A stretch of DNA of 64,000 bases from Micromonospora luteifusca. Its GTDB lineage: Bacteria; Actinomycetota; Actinomycetes; Mycobacteriales; Micromonosporaceae. How positions within the stretch are numbered: position 1 is the stretch's first letter; every line of letters begins with the position of its first letter. The stretch spans positions 3,772,001-3,836,000 of the forward strand of contig NZ_JAFBBP010000001.1 of assembly GCF_016907275.1 (NCBI RefSeq), written 5' to 3'. Below, piece by piece: positions 57,336 through 63,132 of the stretch. A program made the translations under genes and the position numbers. The notes beneath the pieces were generated by a model that was not told where the DNA came from, ran no database searches, and saw only the letters and a program-made list of their open reading frames with translations.

Positions 57336-58550
57336 ATGGTCGACGTCGGCGAGATGGTGCGTTGGCTGCAGCTCAACGCACCCCGAGGTGGGCCGGACGA
57401 ACTGTCCCAGTTGGTGGCCCGGGCGGCTCCCGCCATCGACGCCAGCGAGATCGTGATCTATCTCGCCGACTACACGCAGTCTCTCCTCGTGCCACTGCTC
57501 GGCGCGGGTCTCGTCCGGGACGCGTTGTCGATCGAGACGACCCTCGCCGGCCGGGCCTTCACCAACCTCGACATCCAACGCGCGCCCGACAACCCGGACC
57601 GGGTCTGGGTGCCGCTGCTGCTCGGGTGCGAACGGATGGGCGTGCTGGAGATCGTTTCGCCGGCCGCCGCCGACGTGGCGATGGACGGGCCGGCCTGGGA
57701 GGTGGCGGTCAACATCGCCCAGATCCTGGTCAACCGCCGGCTCTACGGTGACGTGGTCGAGCGGATGCGGCGACGTCTCCCGATGCAGGTCGCGGCCGAG
57801 ATCGTGTGGGGCCTGCTCCCGCCGCTGACCTTCGCCACCGACGACCTGGTGATCACCGCCATCCTCGAACCCTGTTACGACGTCGGCGGCGACATCTTCG
57901 ACTACGCGCTGAACGACGACGTGCTCAGTGTCGGGCTCTTCGACACCTGCGGGCACGGCATCAAGGCGAGCACCCTGGCCTCGCTGGTGGTCAGCGCGTA
58001 CCGCAACGCCCGTCGGTGTGGCCTGGACCTGGTCGACACGGCGATCAGCATCGACCGGTGGGTGCGTTCCGAGCATCCGAACTTCTTCGCGACCGGGCTG
58101 CTCATGGAGTTGGACCGCCAGACCGGCCGACTGACCATGATCAACGCAGGTCATCCCGGTGCGATGTTGCTGCGCGACGGCAAAGCCATCCGGGAGTTGC
58201 CGGGACCGACCGCGTTGCCGCTCGGTCTGGGCCACCTGTCCACCCGCCGCCCGCGGGTGCACGTGGAGGATCTGCACCCGGGCGACCGCATCCTCGCCTA
58301 CACCGACGGCATCACCGATGCGCGCAGCGCGGATGGGGAGCAGTTCGGGCTGGACCGGCTCGTCGACTTCGTCAACCGCGCACTCAACGACGGGTTGCCC
58401 AGCCCGGAGACGATGCGTCGGCTGGTGCGTGCCGTCGTCGGATATCAGGACGACAAGCTTGAGGACGACGCGACCGCACTCTTCGTGGAGTGGCAGCCGC
58501 CGCACCTGCCGCTCGCGCATCTTCGCGACCTGGCAGCGGGACGGTCCTGA
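57336..58550 (+). CDS. PP2C-type (SpoIIE-like) serine phosphatase with N-terminal GAF-like domain
   Basis: A 404-residue signalling phosphatase. Residues 1-135 form a GAF-like sensor. The SpoIIE/RsbU domain follows, with metal-binding Asp in EPCYDVGGDIFDYALN, the GLFDTCGHGIKASTLASLVV segment (GHGxxA), INAGHPGAMLLRDGK, YTDGITDARSADGEQFG and a final LEDDATALFVEW. Such enzymes dephosphorylate anti-anti-sigma factors and so free SigB/SigF-type sigma factors. A sigma factor of that type lies 1.1 kb downstream on the other strand, though no anti-sigma gene is near. GGGGAGGCGGAG precedes the ATG. Confidence 0.9.
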   Translation: MVDVGEMVRWLQLNAPRGGPDELSQLVARAAPAIDASEIVIYLADYTQSLLVPLLGAGLVRDALSIETTLAGRAFTNLDIQRAPDNPDRVWVPLLLGCERMGVLEIVSPAAADVAMDGPAWEVAVNIAQILVNRRLYGDVVERMRRRLPMQVAAEIVWGLLPPLTFATDDLVITAILEPCYDVGGDIFDYALNDDVLSVGLFDTCGHGIKASTLASLVVSAYRNARRCGLDLVDTAISIDRWVRSEHPNFFATGLLMELDRQTGRLTMINAGHPGAMLLRDGKAIRELPGPTALPLGLGHLSTRRPRVHVEDLHPGDRILAYTDGITDARSADGEQFGLDRLVDFVNRALNDGLPSPETMRRLVRAVVGYQDDKLEDDATALFVEWQPPHLPLAHLRDLAAGRS

Positions 58551-59697: not shown

Positions 59698-60510
59698 TCA
59701 GAACGCGCTGTGGTCGGGGTCGGTCAGGTGGCGACGCAGAGCGGCCAATGATCGGGTGATCAGCCGGGAGACGTGCATCTGCGAGACGCCGATCCGGTCG
59801 GCGATCTCAGCCTGGGTCAGGTTGCCGTGGAAGCGCAGACTCAGGATCTCGCGCTCGCGCTCCGGCAGCGTGGCGAGGGCCGGGGCGAGGCCGACGCGGA
59901 TCTCCACGAGATCGAATTCGTGGTCGTCGCCGCCGAGGGTGTCCCCGAGTTCCCGGCTGCCGTCGGCCCCGACGGGGGTGGACAGCGACGTGGCCCGGTA
60001 GGCGCGCGCACCCTCCAGCCCTTCGAGGACGGTCTCCTCGGACAGGTCGAGGTAGGACGCGATGTCGGCCACGGTCGGCAAGCGGCCGAGGGTCTGGGTC
60101 AGAGTGCTGTTCGCCGCGGTGATCGAGAGGCGCAGCTCCTGGAGGCGGCGGGGCACGCGCACCGCCCAGGTGCGATCCCGGAAGTACCGCTTGATCTCGC
60201 CGATGATGGTGGGGATGGCGTACCCGGAGAAGTCCACACCCCGGTCGTGGTCGAAGTTGTCCACGGCCTTGATGAGCCCGACCGAGGCGGTCTGGGTCAG
60301 GTCCTCATCGGGTGCACCACGCCCGGAGTAGCGGCGCGCCAGGTGTCGGGCGAGCGGCAGCCATGCCTCGATGGCGCGGTCCCGCAGCGCGGGGCGTCGC
60401 GGGTCGTTCGCCGGGGTCGCCGCAAGGGCGGCCAGGAGGTCATCCGGGCTCTGGTCGCCGCTCGGCTGGCCGACGTTTGTGCTGGTCGCTGTTTCGACGA
60501 TGATGGCCAT
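59698..60510 (-). CDS. RNA polymerase sigma factor, SigB/SigF/SigG type
   Basis: A 270-residue group 3 sigma factor. Region 2 reads EDLTQTASVGLIKAVDNFDH, then GVDFSGYAIPTIIGEIKRYF and RDRTWAVRVPRRLQELRL. Region 3 reads LGRLPTVADIASYLDLSEET. Region 4 reads LPEREREILSLRFHGNLTQA, then IADRIGVSQMHVSRLITRSL. This class directs stress or developmental genes and is normally held by an RsbW/SpoIIAB-type anti-sigma kinase; none is encoded nearby, but a SpoIIE phosphatase is. I chose the ATG at 60510. GGGTAA on the minus strand about 160 bp upstream resembles a SigF-type -10, but no matching GTTT element was found. Confidence 0.92.
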   Translation of the reverse strand: MAIIVETATSTNVGQPSGDQSPDDLLAALAATPANDPRRPALRDRAIEAWLPLARHLARRYSGRGAPDEDLTQTASVGLIKAVDNFDHDRGVDFSGYAIPTIIGEIKRYFRDRTWAVRVPRRLQELRLSITAANSTLTQTLGRLPTVADIASYLDLSEETVLEGLEGARAYRATSLSTPVGADGSRELGDTLGGDDHEFDLVEIRVGLAPALATLPEREREILSLRFHGNLTQAEIADRIGVSQMHVSRLITRSLAALRRHLTDPDHSAF

Positions 60511-60745
60511 CGGGGTGGTCCTTCCCGCACATGCCCGTCGAACGGATCGACCGGAAGGATCTCCGAACCGGCTGCCGCCGGAGCGCACGTACGGGCGAAC
60601 TGCGCTATCGCAAGGCCACGATCACGGGCCTCGCCACCGCGTCATGTCGTTCAATTGATGACCCGGACATTACCCGAAGGTTTGATTAATTACTAGCCGA
60701 AAGTATGAGCCTCGTGGTGCTCGTGGACGGTGCGGGCTCGCTGGA

Positions 60746-60928: not shown

Positions 60929-61245
60929 GCAGGAACCTGTCTTCCATGAAGGAGTGCGTCCGGCCTCGGCAACTCTCGCCGTGCGACCTCAGGACGATTC
61001 GGCGCTCACACTGGCGCCCGATCAGGGTGTCTCGTTCACGGGCGAGCGCCCGGCGACACCGACACCCCGCACCATACCCGGCGTCGGCGACCCGCACGCA
61101 CCACCGGCGGCCCCGGGTCGCATCTGGCCTGCCGGGGCCAGACAATTCTGTAATCCAACCCGCTGGTGCGAGTCTCCGATCCTGAGGGCGGTCAGCGCAT
61201 CCAGCGTTGGGCGCCGCGCGGATGAGCACACAAGGAGTGACACGC

Positions 61246-63132
61246 ATGTCGTCAGCCGGTCGAGCACTACCCGATCCCGGGTTGGTCGTCGCGGCCCGAC
61301 AGGGCGACCAGCGCGCTCTCGACGACGTCGTCGCGGCCTCGCTTCCGCTGGTCTACAACATCGTCGGGCGTGCGCTCCGCGGTCACGCCGACGTCGACGA
61401 CGTGGTCCAGGAGACATTGGTACGGGTCATCCGGTACCTACCCGCGCTCAACGACCCGGCGGCATACCGGTCCTGGCTGGTGGCGATCACCATCCGCCAG
61501 GTGCGCGACTGGGAGCAGCGGCGACGCGTCGCGCTCAACCGCGACGCCGGGCTCGACGCGATCCACAACGTGCCCGACCCCGCCTCCGACTTCGCCGGGA
61601 TGACCATCCTCCGGCTCGGCCTCACCGACCAACGACGCGAGGTCGCCGAGGCGACCCGCTGGCTCGACCCGGACGACCAGGAGTTGCTCTCGCTGTGGTG
61701 GCTGGAGGAGACCGGCGAGATCGGCCGACCTGAGCTCGCCGACGCGCTCGGGCTGTCGCTCGGGCACGTCGCGGTGCGGATCCACCGGATGAAGGAGCAG
61801 ATCCAGAGCGCCCGGGGCGTCGTACGCGCGCTGCACGCACGCCCCGGTTGCCCGGACCTGCGCGCCGTGACCGCCGACTGGGACGGCGTTCCCAGCCCAC
61901 TCTGGCGCAAGCGACTGGCCCGGCACGTCCGCGAGTGCCCGTCCTGTGGACGACTGGGCTCCAACCTTCTGCCGATCGACCGGCTGCTCGCCGGACTGCC
62001 GCTGCTGCCACTGCCGGCGGGTCTCAGCGCCCACTTTCCGAGCGCCGTGCCTCCGGTGGCCACGCAGGCCGTCGGGCAGCACCCCCCGGGCCTGACGGTC
62101 GACCACTCGGCCGGGCAGGTCCCAACGGGCGGTGTGCCCACCGACGCGGGCGGCGGCCCGAGCGTCGTCGACCTTGCGGTGCACCGGCCCCGCGGCCTTG
62201 TCCCGTCCCTCGCCGCCGGGGTGGTCGCCGCCGTCCTCGCCATCACCCTGGCGGTGGTGATCCTGCCGAAGGATCCGGCCGCGCCCTCATGGGCTGCCCC
62301 GCCGCCCCCCGCGCCCACCGCCGTCGCCTCCCCGAGCGCTGCACCGTCGCCAAGCGCCCGACCTTCGTCGAGGGCGCCAGTCGCGCCGGCGGTCAGCTCC
62401 GCGCGCAAGGGCGTCGGGGTGTGGAACTTCGCCGGGGCCAGTCAGGCGTTGGCGAGCTCCAAGGCTGGCTGGTATTACACCTGGGGCACCCAGCACCCGG
62501 GGATCAGCACTCCGCAGGGTGTGACGTTCGTGCCCATGATCCGCAGCGCGGAGAACGTCACCGCGGCGGAGTTGGCCCGGGCCAGGGCGGCCGGGCCGTA
62601 TCTGCTCACCTTCAACGAGCCGGACCTGCCCGAGCAGGCGAACATGACCGTCGAGCAGGCGCTGGACCTGTGGCCGCAGCTGATGGCGACGGGCAGCAAG
62701 CTGGGCAGCCCGGCGGTCGCCTGGGGCGGCCCGGAGCCGCAAGGTTGGTTGGACAGGTTCATGACCGGCGCCCAGGCCCGCGGTCACCGGGTGGACTTCA
62801 TCACGCTGCACTGGTTCGGCGCCGACTTCGCGACCACCACCGCGGTCGACCAGCTCCGGCAGTATCTGCAGGCGGTGTACCAGCGGTACCGGAAACCGAT
62901 CTGGCTGACCGAGTTCGCACTGATCCGTTTCGACGGCGGCGGCCAACAGTTCCCGCGCCAGGAGCAGCAGGCGGCCTTCCTGACCGCTGCCACCGCCATG
63001 CTCGGTCAACTGTCCTACGTGCAGCGTTACGCCTGGTTCGGCCTGCCCGCCACCGACAAGGACCGGTCCGGGTTGTTCAGCGACGGCACCAAGGCGACCC
63101 TGGTCGGCCGCGCGTTCCAAGCCGCCCGTTGA
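61246..63132 (+). CDS. Membrane-spanning ECF sigma factor fused to a GH128-type glucanase domain
   Basis: A 628-residue fusion. Residues 10-95 are sigma region 2 (GHADVDDVVQETLVRVIRYL, AYRSWLVAITIRQVRDWEQR). Residues 135-190 are region 4 (DPDDQELLSLWWLEETGEIG, ADALGLSLGHVAVRIHRMKE). H227-xxx-C231-xx-C234 (HVRECPSC) is an anti-sigma-type zinc motif. A membrane helix spans about 317-340, a Pro/Ala/Ser linker 341-388, and an exported domain 389-628. That domain has the GH128 pair: Glu458 in LLTFNEPDLPEQ and Glu556 in IWLTEFALIRF. Sensor, anti-sigma and sigma would thus be one chain; release of the sigma part would need proteolysis. AAGGAG stands eight bases before the chosen ATG; ATG 61222 is less well placed. 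Confidence 0.88.
   Translation: MSSAGRALPDPGLVVAARQGDQRALDDVVAASLPLVYNIVGRALRGHADVDDVVQETLVRVIRYLPALNDPAAYRSWLVAITIRQVRDWEQRRRVALNRDAGLDAIHNVPDPASDFAGMTILRLGLTDQRREVAEATRWLDPDDQELLSLWWLEETGEIGRPELADALGLSLGHVAVRIHRMKEQIQSARGVVRALHARPGCPDLRAVTADWDGVPSPLWRKRLARHVRECPSCGRLGSNLLPIDRLLAGLPLLPLPAGLSAHFPSAVPPVATQAVGQHPPGLTVDHSAGQVPTGGVPTDAGGGPSVVDLAVHRPRGLVPSLAAGVVAAVLAITLAVVILPKDPAAPSWAAPPPPAPTAVASPSAAPSPSARPSSRAPVAPAVSSARKGVGVWNFAGASQALASSKAGWYYTWGTQHPGISTPQGVTFVPMIRSAENVTAAELARARAAGPYLLTFNEPDLPEQANMTVEQALDLWPQLMATGSKLGSPAVAWGGPEPQGWLDRFMTGAQARGHRVDFITLHWFGADFATTTAVDQLRQYLQAVYQRYRKPIWLTEFALIRFDGGGQQFPRQEQQAAFLTAATAMLGQLSYVQRYAWFGLPATDKDRSGLFSDGTKATLVGRAFQAAR

Follow-up and report, generated by a model that had tools for sequence, protein, structure and literature searches.

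The ECF52 and ECF53 sigma factors of Actinobacteria carry, on one chain, a fused zinc finger, one or two membrane helices and an exported carbohydrate domain, and autoregulation and proteolytic release have been proposed for them (PMC8999054, PMC10766802, PMC5826349). Some are described with predicted glycosyl-hydrolase domains (PMC8999054, PMC10766802), for which experimental validation was called still lacking (PMC10766802). SCO4117 of S. coelicolor bears a carbohydrate-binding module, and its sigma-only version remains active; its promoter motif, CSGYN-17-SRHA, is termed theoretical (PMC5826349). In Pseudomonas putida, IutY (ECF243) is a sigma factor fused to a membrane anti-sigma part and is released by Prc and RseP (PMC8999054). 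The SigI6/RsgI6 pair of Clostridium thermocellum has an outside GH10 sensor, whose own activity is reported to be very low, and an autoregulated sigma factor with xylanase promoters among its targets; SigI belongs to a different sigma factor type and has only a resemblance to ECF factors (PMC4711584). RsgI cleaves itself in its periplasmic domain (PMC12203970).

The window analyzed here, a 64,000-nt stretch of the Micromonospora luteifusca genome, encodes a protein that shares with ECF52/ECF53 and SCO4117 a C-terminal zinc finger, a membrane helix, a Pro-rich stretch and an exported carbohydrate domain, and it falls in ECF52/ECF53 by the architecture described for these classes. Coupling a glucanase to its own transcription factor had been called an unusual sensing device, which overstates the case because ECF52/ECF53 proteins that join a zinc finger and a helix to a predicted glycosyl-hydrolase domain are in print. 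The window protein exports a GH128 domain, whereas SCO4117 exports a carbohydrate-binding module, and its promoter is unlike CSGYN-17-SRHA. IutY is likewise an ECF–anti-sigma membrane fusion, but it answers the siderophore aerobactin, and no glycosidase is named for it. SigI6/RsgI6 resembles the window protein in its outside glycoside hydrolase and in predicted targets that include a sensor-related enzyme; it differs in using two proteins where there is one here, and RsgI has a self-cleaving domain where the window protein has no Pfam linker domain. By this analogy, the fusion is best read as a putative one-protein counterpart of SigI6/RsgI6. We found no report of a GH128–sigma fusion or of its promoter in the literature searched, a scope that mostly excluded subscription papers and leaves the absence unproven.

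The fusion gene, assigned from its frame and from domain and protein searches, occupies 61246–63132 (+), stop codon included. Its frame is uninterrupted over 628 codons from an ATG at 61246 that is kept in 9/9 aligned Micromonospora sequences; an alternative TTG start at 61207 would add 13 codons. The ribosome-binding site AAGGAG lies at 61232–61237 (+), and its GGAG is retained in nine aligned sequences. A scan for sigma-70-type promoters and terminators around the gene found none. Long frames are present on the opposite strand, but antisense translation in the same register contains stops, and because the DNA is G+C-rich we took these frames as composition and rejected an antisense gene. Translations read by eye indicate two genes of interest upstream of the fusion, an RsbU-type PP2C phosphatase-like gene (57336–58550, +) and, one gene along toward the fusion, a SigB/SigF-type sigma factor-like gene (59698–60588, -).

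From the letters of this frame, the original prediction had read sigma regions 2 and 4, an HVRECPSC zinc motif, a single membrane helix with the C-terminal part outside, a Pro/Ala/Ser linker and a GH128 domain with two catalytic glutamates. Profile and structure searches confirmed that domain order, and the domain reading stands throughout; the conserved promoter and the sigma-less paralogue described below had gone unnoticed. Residues 24–188 (61315–61809, +) match TIGR02937 (E 2.6e-16), a profile match that spans regions 2 and 4 and so marks an ECF sigma factor. Pfam Sigma70_r2 (PF04542, E 7.9e-10) covers region 2 at residues 29–92. The Pfam region-4 model had no match in the window protein, and region 4, within the second half of the sigma domain, rests on TIGR02937; sigma-E (1or7) is among the fold matches. 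The zinc anti-sigma (ZAS) segment (61849–61947, +) is identified by conservation. Its H227-x3-C231-x2-C234 motif and a further zinc ligand, C202, which is missing from the original prediction, are invariant in 61/61 aligned proteins, whatever the exported domain. We take C202 to occupy the place of the usual first His in the ZAS zinc motif. The zf-HC2 model gave no match in the protein at E up to 1.

The 19-residue transmembrane helix (residues 322–340; 62209–62265, +) has a mean hydropathy of 2.89, and Lys/Arg are more numerous on its N-terminal side, consistent with the predicted topology. The Pro/Ala/Ser-rich linker that follows (residues 341–385; 62266–62400, +) is evident in the sequence; no Pfam domain was found in it. 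The exported GH128 subgroup I-like domain (residues 388–628; 62407–63129, +) is supported by profile, sequence and fold matches, including Glyco_hydro_cc (PF11790; residues 403–623, E 6.8e-48). An AlphaFold2 model of the protein (mean pLDDT 76.4, pTM 0.46) is confident over the greater part of the sigma, zinc and GH128 regions, with helices 203–208 and 218–230 of the ZAS segment in well-scored regions. It is weak at residues 99–124 and over most of 251–380, membrane helix included, with the linker at low confidence to residue 380; because the linking parts are poorly scored and the pTM is low, the model says nothing on the arrangement of the domains or on packing of the zinc segment against the sigma domain.

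Full-length relatives occur in Micromonospora, Phytohabitans, Plantactinospora, Sphaerisporangium, Planotetraspora, Actinoplanes, Streptomyces and others. Among the best 120 of 2948 proteins found, 120/120 have like length and both Pfam domains. The full 628-residue chain thus recurs in Micromonosporaceae, Streptosporangiaceae and Streptomycetaceae, which rules out a frameshift or gene-merging artefact in the window; homologues with separate sigma and glycosidase genes, beside a frameshift here, had been named as the case that would overturn the single-frame reading, and the survey excludes it. As related loci we used the best 80 of at least 438 confirmed stretches, all 80 actinobacterial, and aligned 60 of them with the window protein (n = 61); the 20 left out comprised near-duplicates, five genes cut at the DNA end and three broken frames. 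Frames break early inside the fusion in at least three of the 80 loci (L048, L054 and L075, one with N runs), which are pseudogenes or sequencing errors.

The exported part of the 61 fusions is Glyco_hydro_cc in 37, CAP in 14 and AbfB in 4, with no Pfam match of its own in 6. Because the exported domain varies and the zinc ligands are constant across these relatives, the sigma–zinc–helix module is a chassis that takes exchangeable exported domains. The best helix past the zinc motif has a mean hydropathy of at least 1.8 in 59/61 proteins, and Lys/Arg are in excess on the N-terminal side of the helix in 45 of the 61 and in deficit in 4. Thirteen fusions have another strongly hydrophobic stretch, and in some (e.g. 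L026) the best-scoring stretch lies near the zinc motif. At L173:659-3460 (+), a 934-residue sigma fusion with the same promoter as the window gene exports a right-handed beta-helix domain; its C-terminus has LAQTG followed by a hydrophobic stretch and RRRRS. This ending resembles a sortase signal, and the L173 sigma factor may have its distal end attached to the cell wall.

Upstream DNA from nine Micromonospora sequences contains a conserved GTAATC-N16-GTCTCC block, 91–96 nt 5′ of the ATG; the farther upstream flanks of L008 and L014 diverge from the others. This orthologue footprint defines a predicted ECF-type promoter at 61149–61177 (+), with TGTAATCC as its -35 box (61149–61156), a 15-nt spacer and GTCTCC as its -10 box (61172–61177). 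When more loci were read, the family consensus emerged as TTTCTGTTATCC-N15/16-GTCTCC. Allowing up to two mismatches to TGTTATCC-N14-17-GTCTCC within 250 nt upstream, we found the promoter at 70/82 genes (the 80 loci, of which 68 carry it, plus the window gene and the paralogue) versus 0.1% of 4100 dinucleotide shuffles, a count that is flattered because the consensus was read from the same loci, although these had been picked by protein similarity. The spacer is 15 nt in 44 of the 70 and 16 nt in 26. Scored with the family matrix, the promoter at 61149 is the only position in the window above 9. The looser GTAATC pattern matched twice at L025, away from the gene. Twelve of the 80 loci lack the promoter at two mismatches, all 4 AbfB fusions among them. 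These AbfB fusions (L065, L072, L076 and L080) retain conserved sigma and zinc parts, and their sigma factor may read another sequence.

The pattern TGTWATCC-N14-16-GTCTCC, widened at one base to cover both variants, has exactly 2 sites in the 7.16-Mb genome, one upstream of the fusion and one upstream of a GH128 paralogue, whose upstream DNA carries TGTTATCC-N15-GTCTCC; the reversed pattern has no occurrence in that genome. The shared promoter is thus nearly restricted to two genes. Admitting TGTTGTCC, a form frequent among Streptomyces fusions, adds a third exact site (L155, C1:5459385-5459414); its neighbours, a PadR-like gene and a gene for a small exported protein, are both oriented the opposite way, with no gene downstream of the site. 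A matrix built from 68 other sites scores the window promoter 34.1 and the paralogue promoter 22.4, within a family range of 15.1 to 41.9. A two-mismatch search of the genome, with the 15-nt spacer only, returned 28 sites, two of them convincing. The best of the 26 others score 18.2 and 16.5, inside the family range because its lowest site scores 15.1, and both lie within opposite-strand coding frames. We gave no weight to the comparison of these 28 sites with 3 in the reversed-pattern control, because the control was not composition-matched.

Across 81 Micromonospora genomes, the pattern has 21 sites in 16 genomes (control, 1): 14 upstream of a sigma fusion, 6 upstream of a free GH128 gene and 1 upstream of neither. 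The GH128 part is visible in 12 of the 14 fusions, whereas the DNA of L093 and L099 ends short of it. Two of the fusions, L096 and L099, are more distant, and the free GH128 gene at L089 is cut after 65 residues. The L100 site, inside a LacI-like regulator gene, was rejected as a promoter and taken as chance. All 6 free-gene sites have both boxes at exactly 15-nt spacing, though they were selected by that match. With a stricter pattern, 121 genomes of a second genus, taken as Streptomyces because its L161 and L169 sites are identical to those at L077 and L086, yielded 12 sites in 12 genomes (control, 0). Read by eye, 4 precede sigma fusions, 5 precede proteins with twin-arginine-like starts and 3 precede another protein with a signal-like start, where the start or promoter role is unsure because the chosen start lies only 5 nt past the -10 box. 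Domain scans of two of these four fusions showed CAP domains in both; among the exported proteins, scanned one per type, there was one Alginate_lyase match (E 3.9e-8, the L174 protein), and PATR fell below its cut-off. The predicted exported proteins at L174:1611-3107 (-) and L178:1693-3231 (-) have twin-arginine-like starts and LAATG-type C-termini. The same promoter immediately precedes both, and a related sigma fusion may control them. With the -35 box loosened to TGTTRTCC, 22 of 198 genomes in the phylum had sites, 28 in all (control, 7), L155 of the own genome among them, and we set this search aside as mostly background: about 13 of the sites have a common TGTTGTCCGC-type sequence and lie for the most part within coding frames or opposite them, and only 4 (L087, L136, L156 and L160) precede free GH128, fusion or exported proteins.

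The paralogue (L002:1300-2409, own genome; 369 codons) consists of helix, linker and GH128 domain without sigma. In a protein search of the genome, no other protein besides the fusion itself matched the GH128 part strongly, and four weaker matches were to the sigma part. The free gene retains the start, leader and promoter of a fusion and its first ~10 residues; the sigma and zinc parts are absent, and the chain resumes before the helix. Free-gene DNA was read in this way for the paralogue and for the Micromonospora free loci. In the tree, the nearest fused relatives of the free gene are a second fusion lineage (P0108, P0110 and P0150), not the window gene, which indicates that the free enzyme arose from this other fusion by loss of the sigma part. 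P0151 starts after the zinc part and looks like a separate loss. On a tree of 89 GH128 domains (61 fused and 28 free, after thinning at 88% identity), 15 changes are required to explain the fused/free label, and well-supported branches force 11 of these; some free entries in this count come from short metagenome contigs and are possibly gene-prediction truncations. A close Micromonospora fusion exists for at least 13 of the 21 named organisms among the free proteins P0122–P0148.

The solved structure closest to the exported domain is AmGH128_I, a GH128 subgroup I endo-beta-1,3-glucanase from Amycolatopsis mediterranei (PDB 6uaq and mutants; E 3.2e-80). The two share the fold (TM 0.97 by target length), 55% sequence identity and both catalytic glutamates, which makes the exported domain subgroup I-like. 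E556 (62911–62913, +), the predicted nucleophile, aligns with E199, the residue mutated in AmGH128_I crystal structures. E458 (62617–62619, +), the predicted acid/base, corresponds to E102 by spacing, the glutamates being 97 residues apart there and 98 here, with one gap between. Both are Glu in 174/174 fused and 66/66 free GH128 domains, a set in which some proteins are counted twice, as protein and as locus. Among the 61 fused representatives, 43 of 243 GH128 columns are invariant, both glutamates included.

At R433 (62542–62544, +) and F524 (62815–62817, +) of the window protein, AmGH128_I has Trp and Tyr. All 81 of the closest fusions among the best-listed proteins have Arg at residue 433. 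The 88 other fusions divide into 81 with Trp and 7 with Arg at this position, and the 66 free domains into 65 with Trp and 1 with Leu. At residue 524, Phe occurs in 71/81 of the closest fusions, whereas 88/88 other fusions and 66/66 free domains compared have Tyr; the group of the window protein also has G499Q. Among representatives, Arg433 is found in 14/61 fused versus 0/28 free domains (27 Trp, 1 Leu), with a Fisher p of 0.004 in a test that ignores relatedness. On a quick tree built without column 433, Arg433 needs at least 5 changes, gains or losses; it sits on separate branches and, in the set compared, only in fused copies. Two pairs that each share an organism name (P0085/P0155 and P0082/P0157) have Arg433 in the fused copy and Trp in the free copy. 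In the model, residue 433 lies two residues past the last preceding short strand piece. Barrel enzymes often hold substrate residues just after strand ends, and residue 433 may line the substrate cleft. Because Arg433 and Phe524 prevail in the closest fusions despite intact glutamates, the fused domain may act chiefly as a receptor and less as an enzyme. With the W433R and Y524F substitutions, this copy may have lost the ability to cut or bind the usual substrate, and the Arg433/Trp433 pattern suggests a division of labour between receptor and free enzyme.

Taken together, the fusion is probably a single-chain glucan receptor whose freed sigma factor drives its own gene and that of a cognate glucanase. 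At rest, the ECF sigma domain would be kept at the membrane by its own ZAS segment. The exported GH128 domain would bind, and perhaps cut, beta-1,3-glucan or its oligosaccharides, and the chain would then be cleaved within the membrane helix or adjacent to it, with removal or opening of the zinc segment; IutY, SCO4117 and RsgI are the precedents from which we infer regulated intramembrane proteolysis here. The freed sigma domain would join RNA polymerase and read TTTCTGTTATCC-N15/16-GTCTCC promoters, and its predicted targets in this genome are its own gene and the free, membrane-anchored or secreted GH128 glucanase without sigma. The original prediction that glucan outside the cell controls the sigma factor inside gains independent support from this predicted regulon; glucan as the signal itself keeps the standing of a presumption.

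The exported domain could instead be a working glucanase held at the surface, with the fusion serving localisation and the sigma factor sensing, for example, envelope stress. Invariance of both catalytic glutamates in every fused domain favours this account, as does the presence of CAP or other domains on relatives whose sigma and zinc part is the same, since the sigma factor can therefore serve several inputs. It is nonetheless quite unlikely, because the sole other exact TGTWATCC-N14-16-GTCTCC site in the genome precedes the same type of enzyme and Arg433 is confined to fusions in the set compared. The shared promoter might also reflect common descent only: because the free gene derives from a fusion, whose start, leader and promoter it retains, it may have inherited the promoter and not been recruited, with no physiological coupling. 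We consider this improbable. The six Micromonospora free-gene sites keep both boxes and the exact spacing, albeit as sites chosen by that match, and the Streptomyces motif also precedes exported proteins unlike the GH128 domains of the fusions, which descent from a fusion fails to explain.

A somewhat better case, though still on the unlikely side, can be made that the ligand is a polymer other than beta-1,3-glucan, such as the cell's own envelope or an exopolysaccharide. W433R, Y524F and G499Q occur in a domain otherwise near a beta-1,3-glucanase, AbfB and beta-helix domains ride on sister sigma factors, and the short linker holds the GH128 domain near the wall; at ~45 residues it may be too short to reach past it. 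Against a change of polymer stand the near-identical fold and 55% identity to a described endo-beta-1,3-glucanase and the invariant columns of the fused representatives. A broader reading of the family, which we put forward tentatively and at less than even confidence, is that one gene recurrently yields both sensor and enzyme: copies that lose sigma would become free glucanases under the same promoter, and fused copies that exchange Trp for Arg would become dedicated receptors. If this is true, the window genome represents the finished state, with an Arg433 receptor-sigma whose predicted regulon is itself and a sigma-less enzyme.

The fusion is genuine and conserved, a putative single-chain sigma-receptor that belongs to an already described class. 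As far as our searches show, the predicted closed circuit of the fusion and a sigma-less copy of its sensor, their shared promoter and the recurrent Arg433 are new. The case offers a sharp and inexpensive test, since it comes down to a single promoter sequence, two predicted target genes, one enzyme family and a substitution that is a candidate for making a receptor. Fusions that carry CAP and beta-helix domains share this promoter, as do genes for predicted exported proteins in Streptomyces, and it may therefore open a wider set of polymer-sensing circuits. Such circuits may give compact parts for glucan-responsive gene control.
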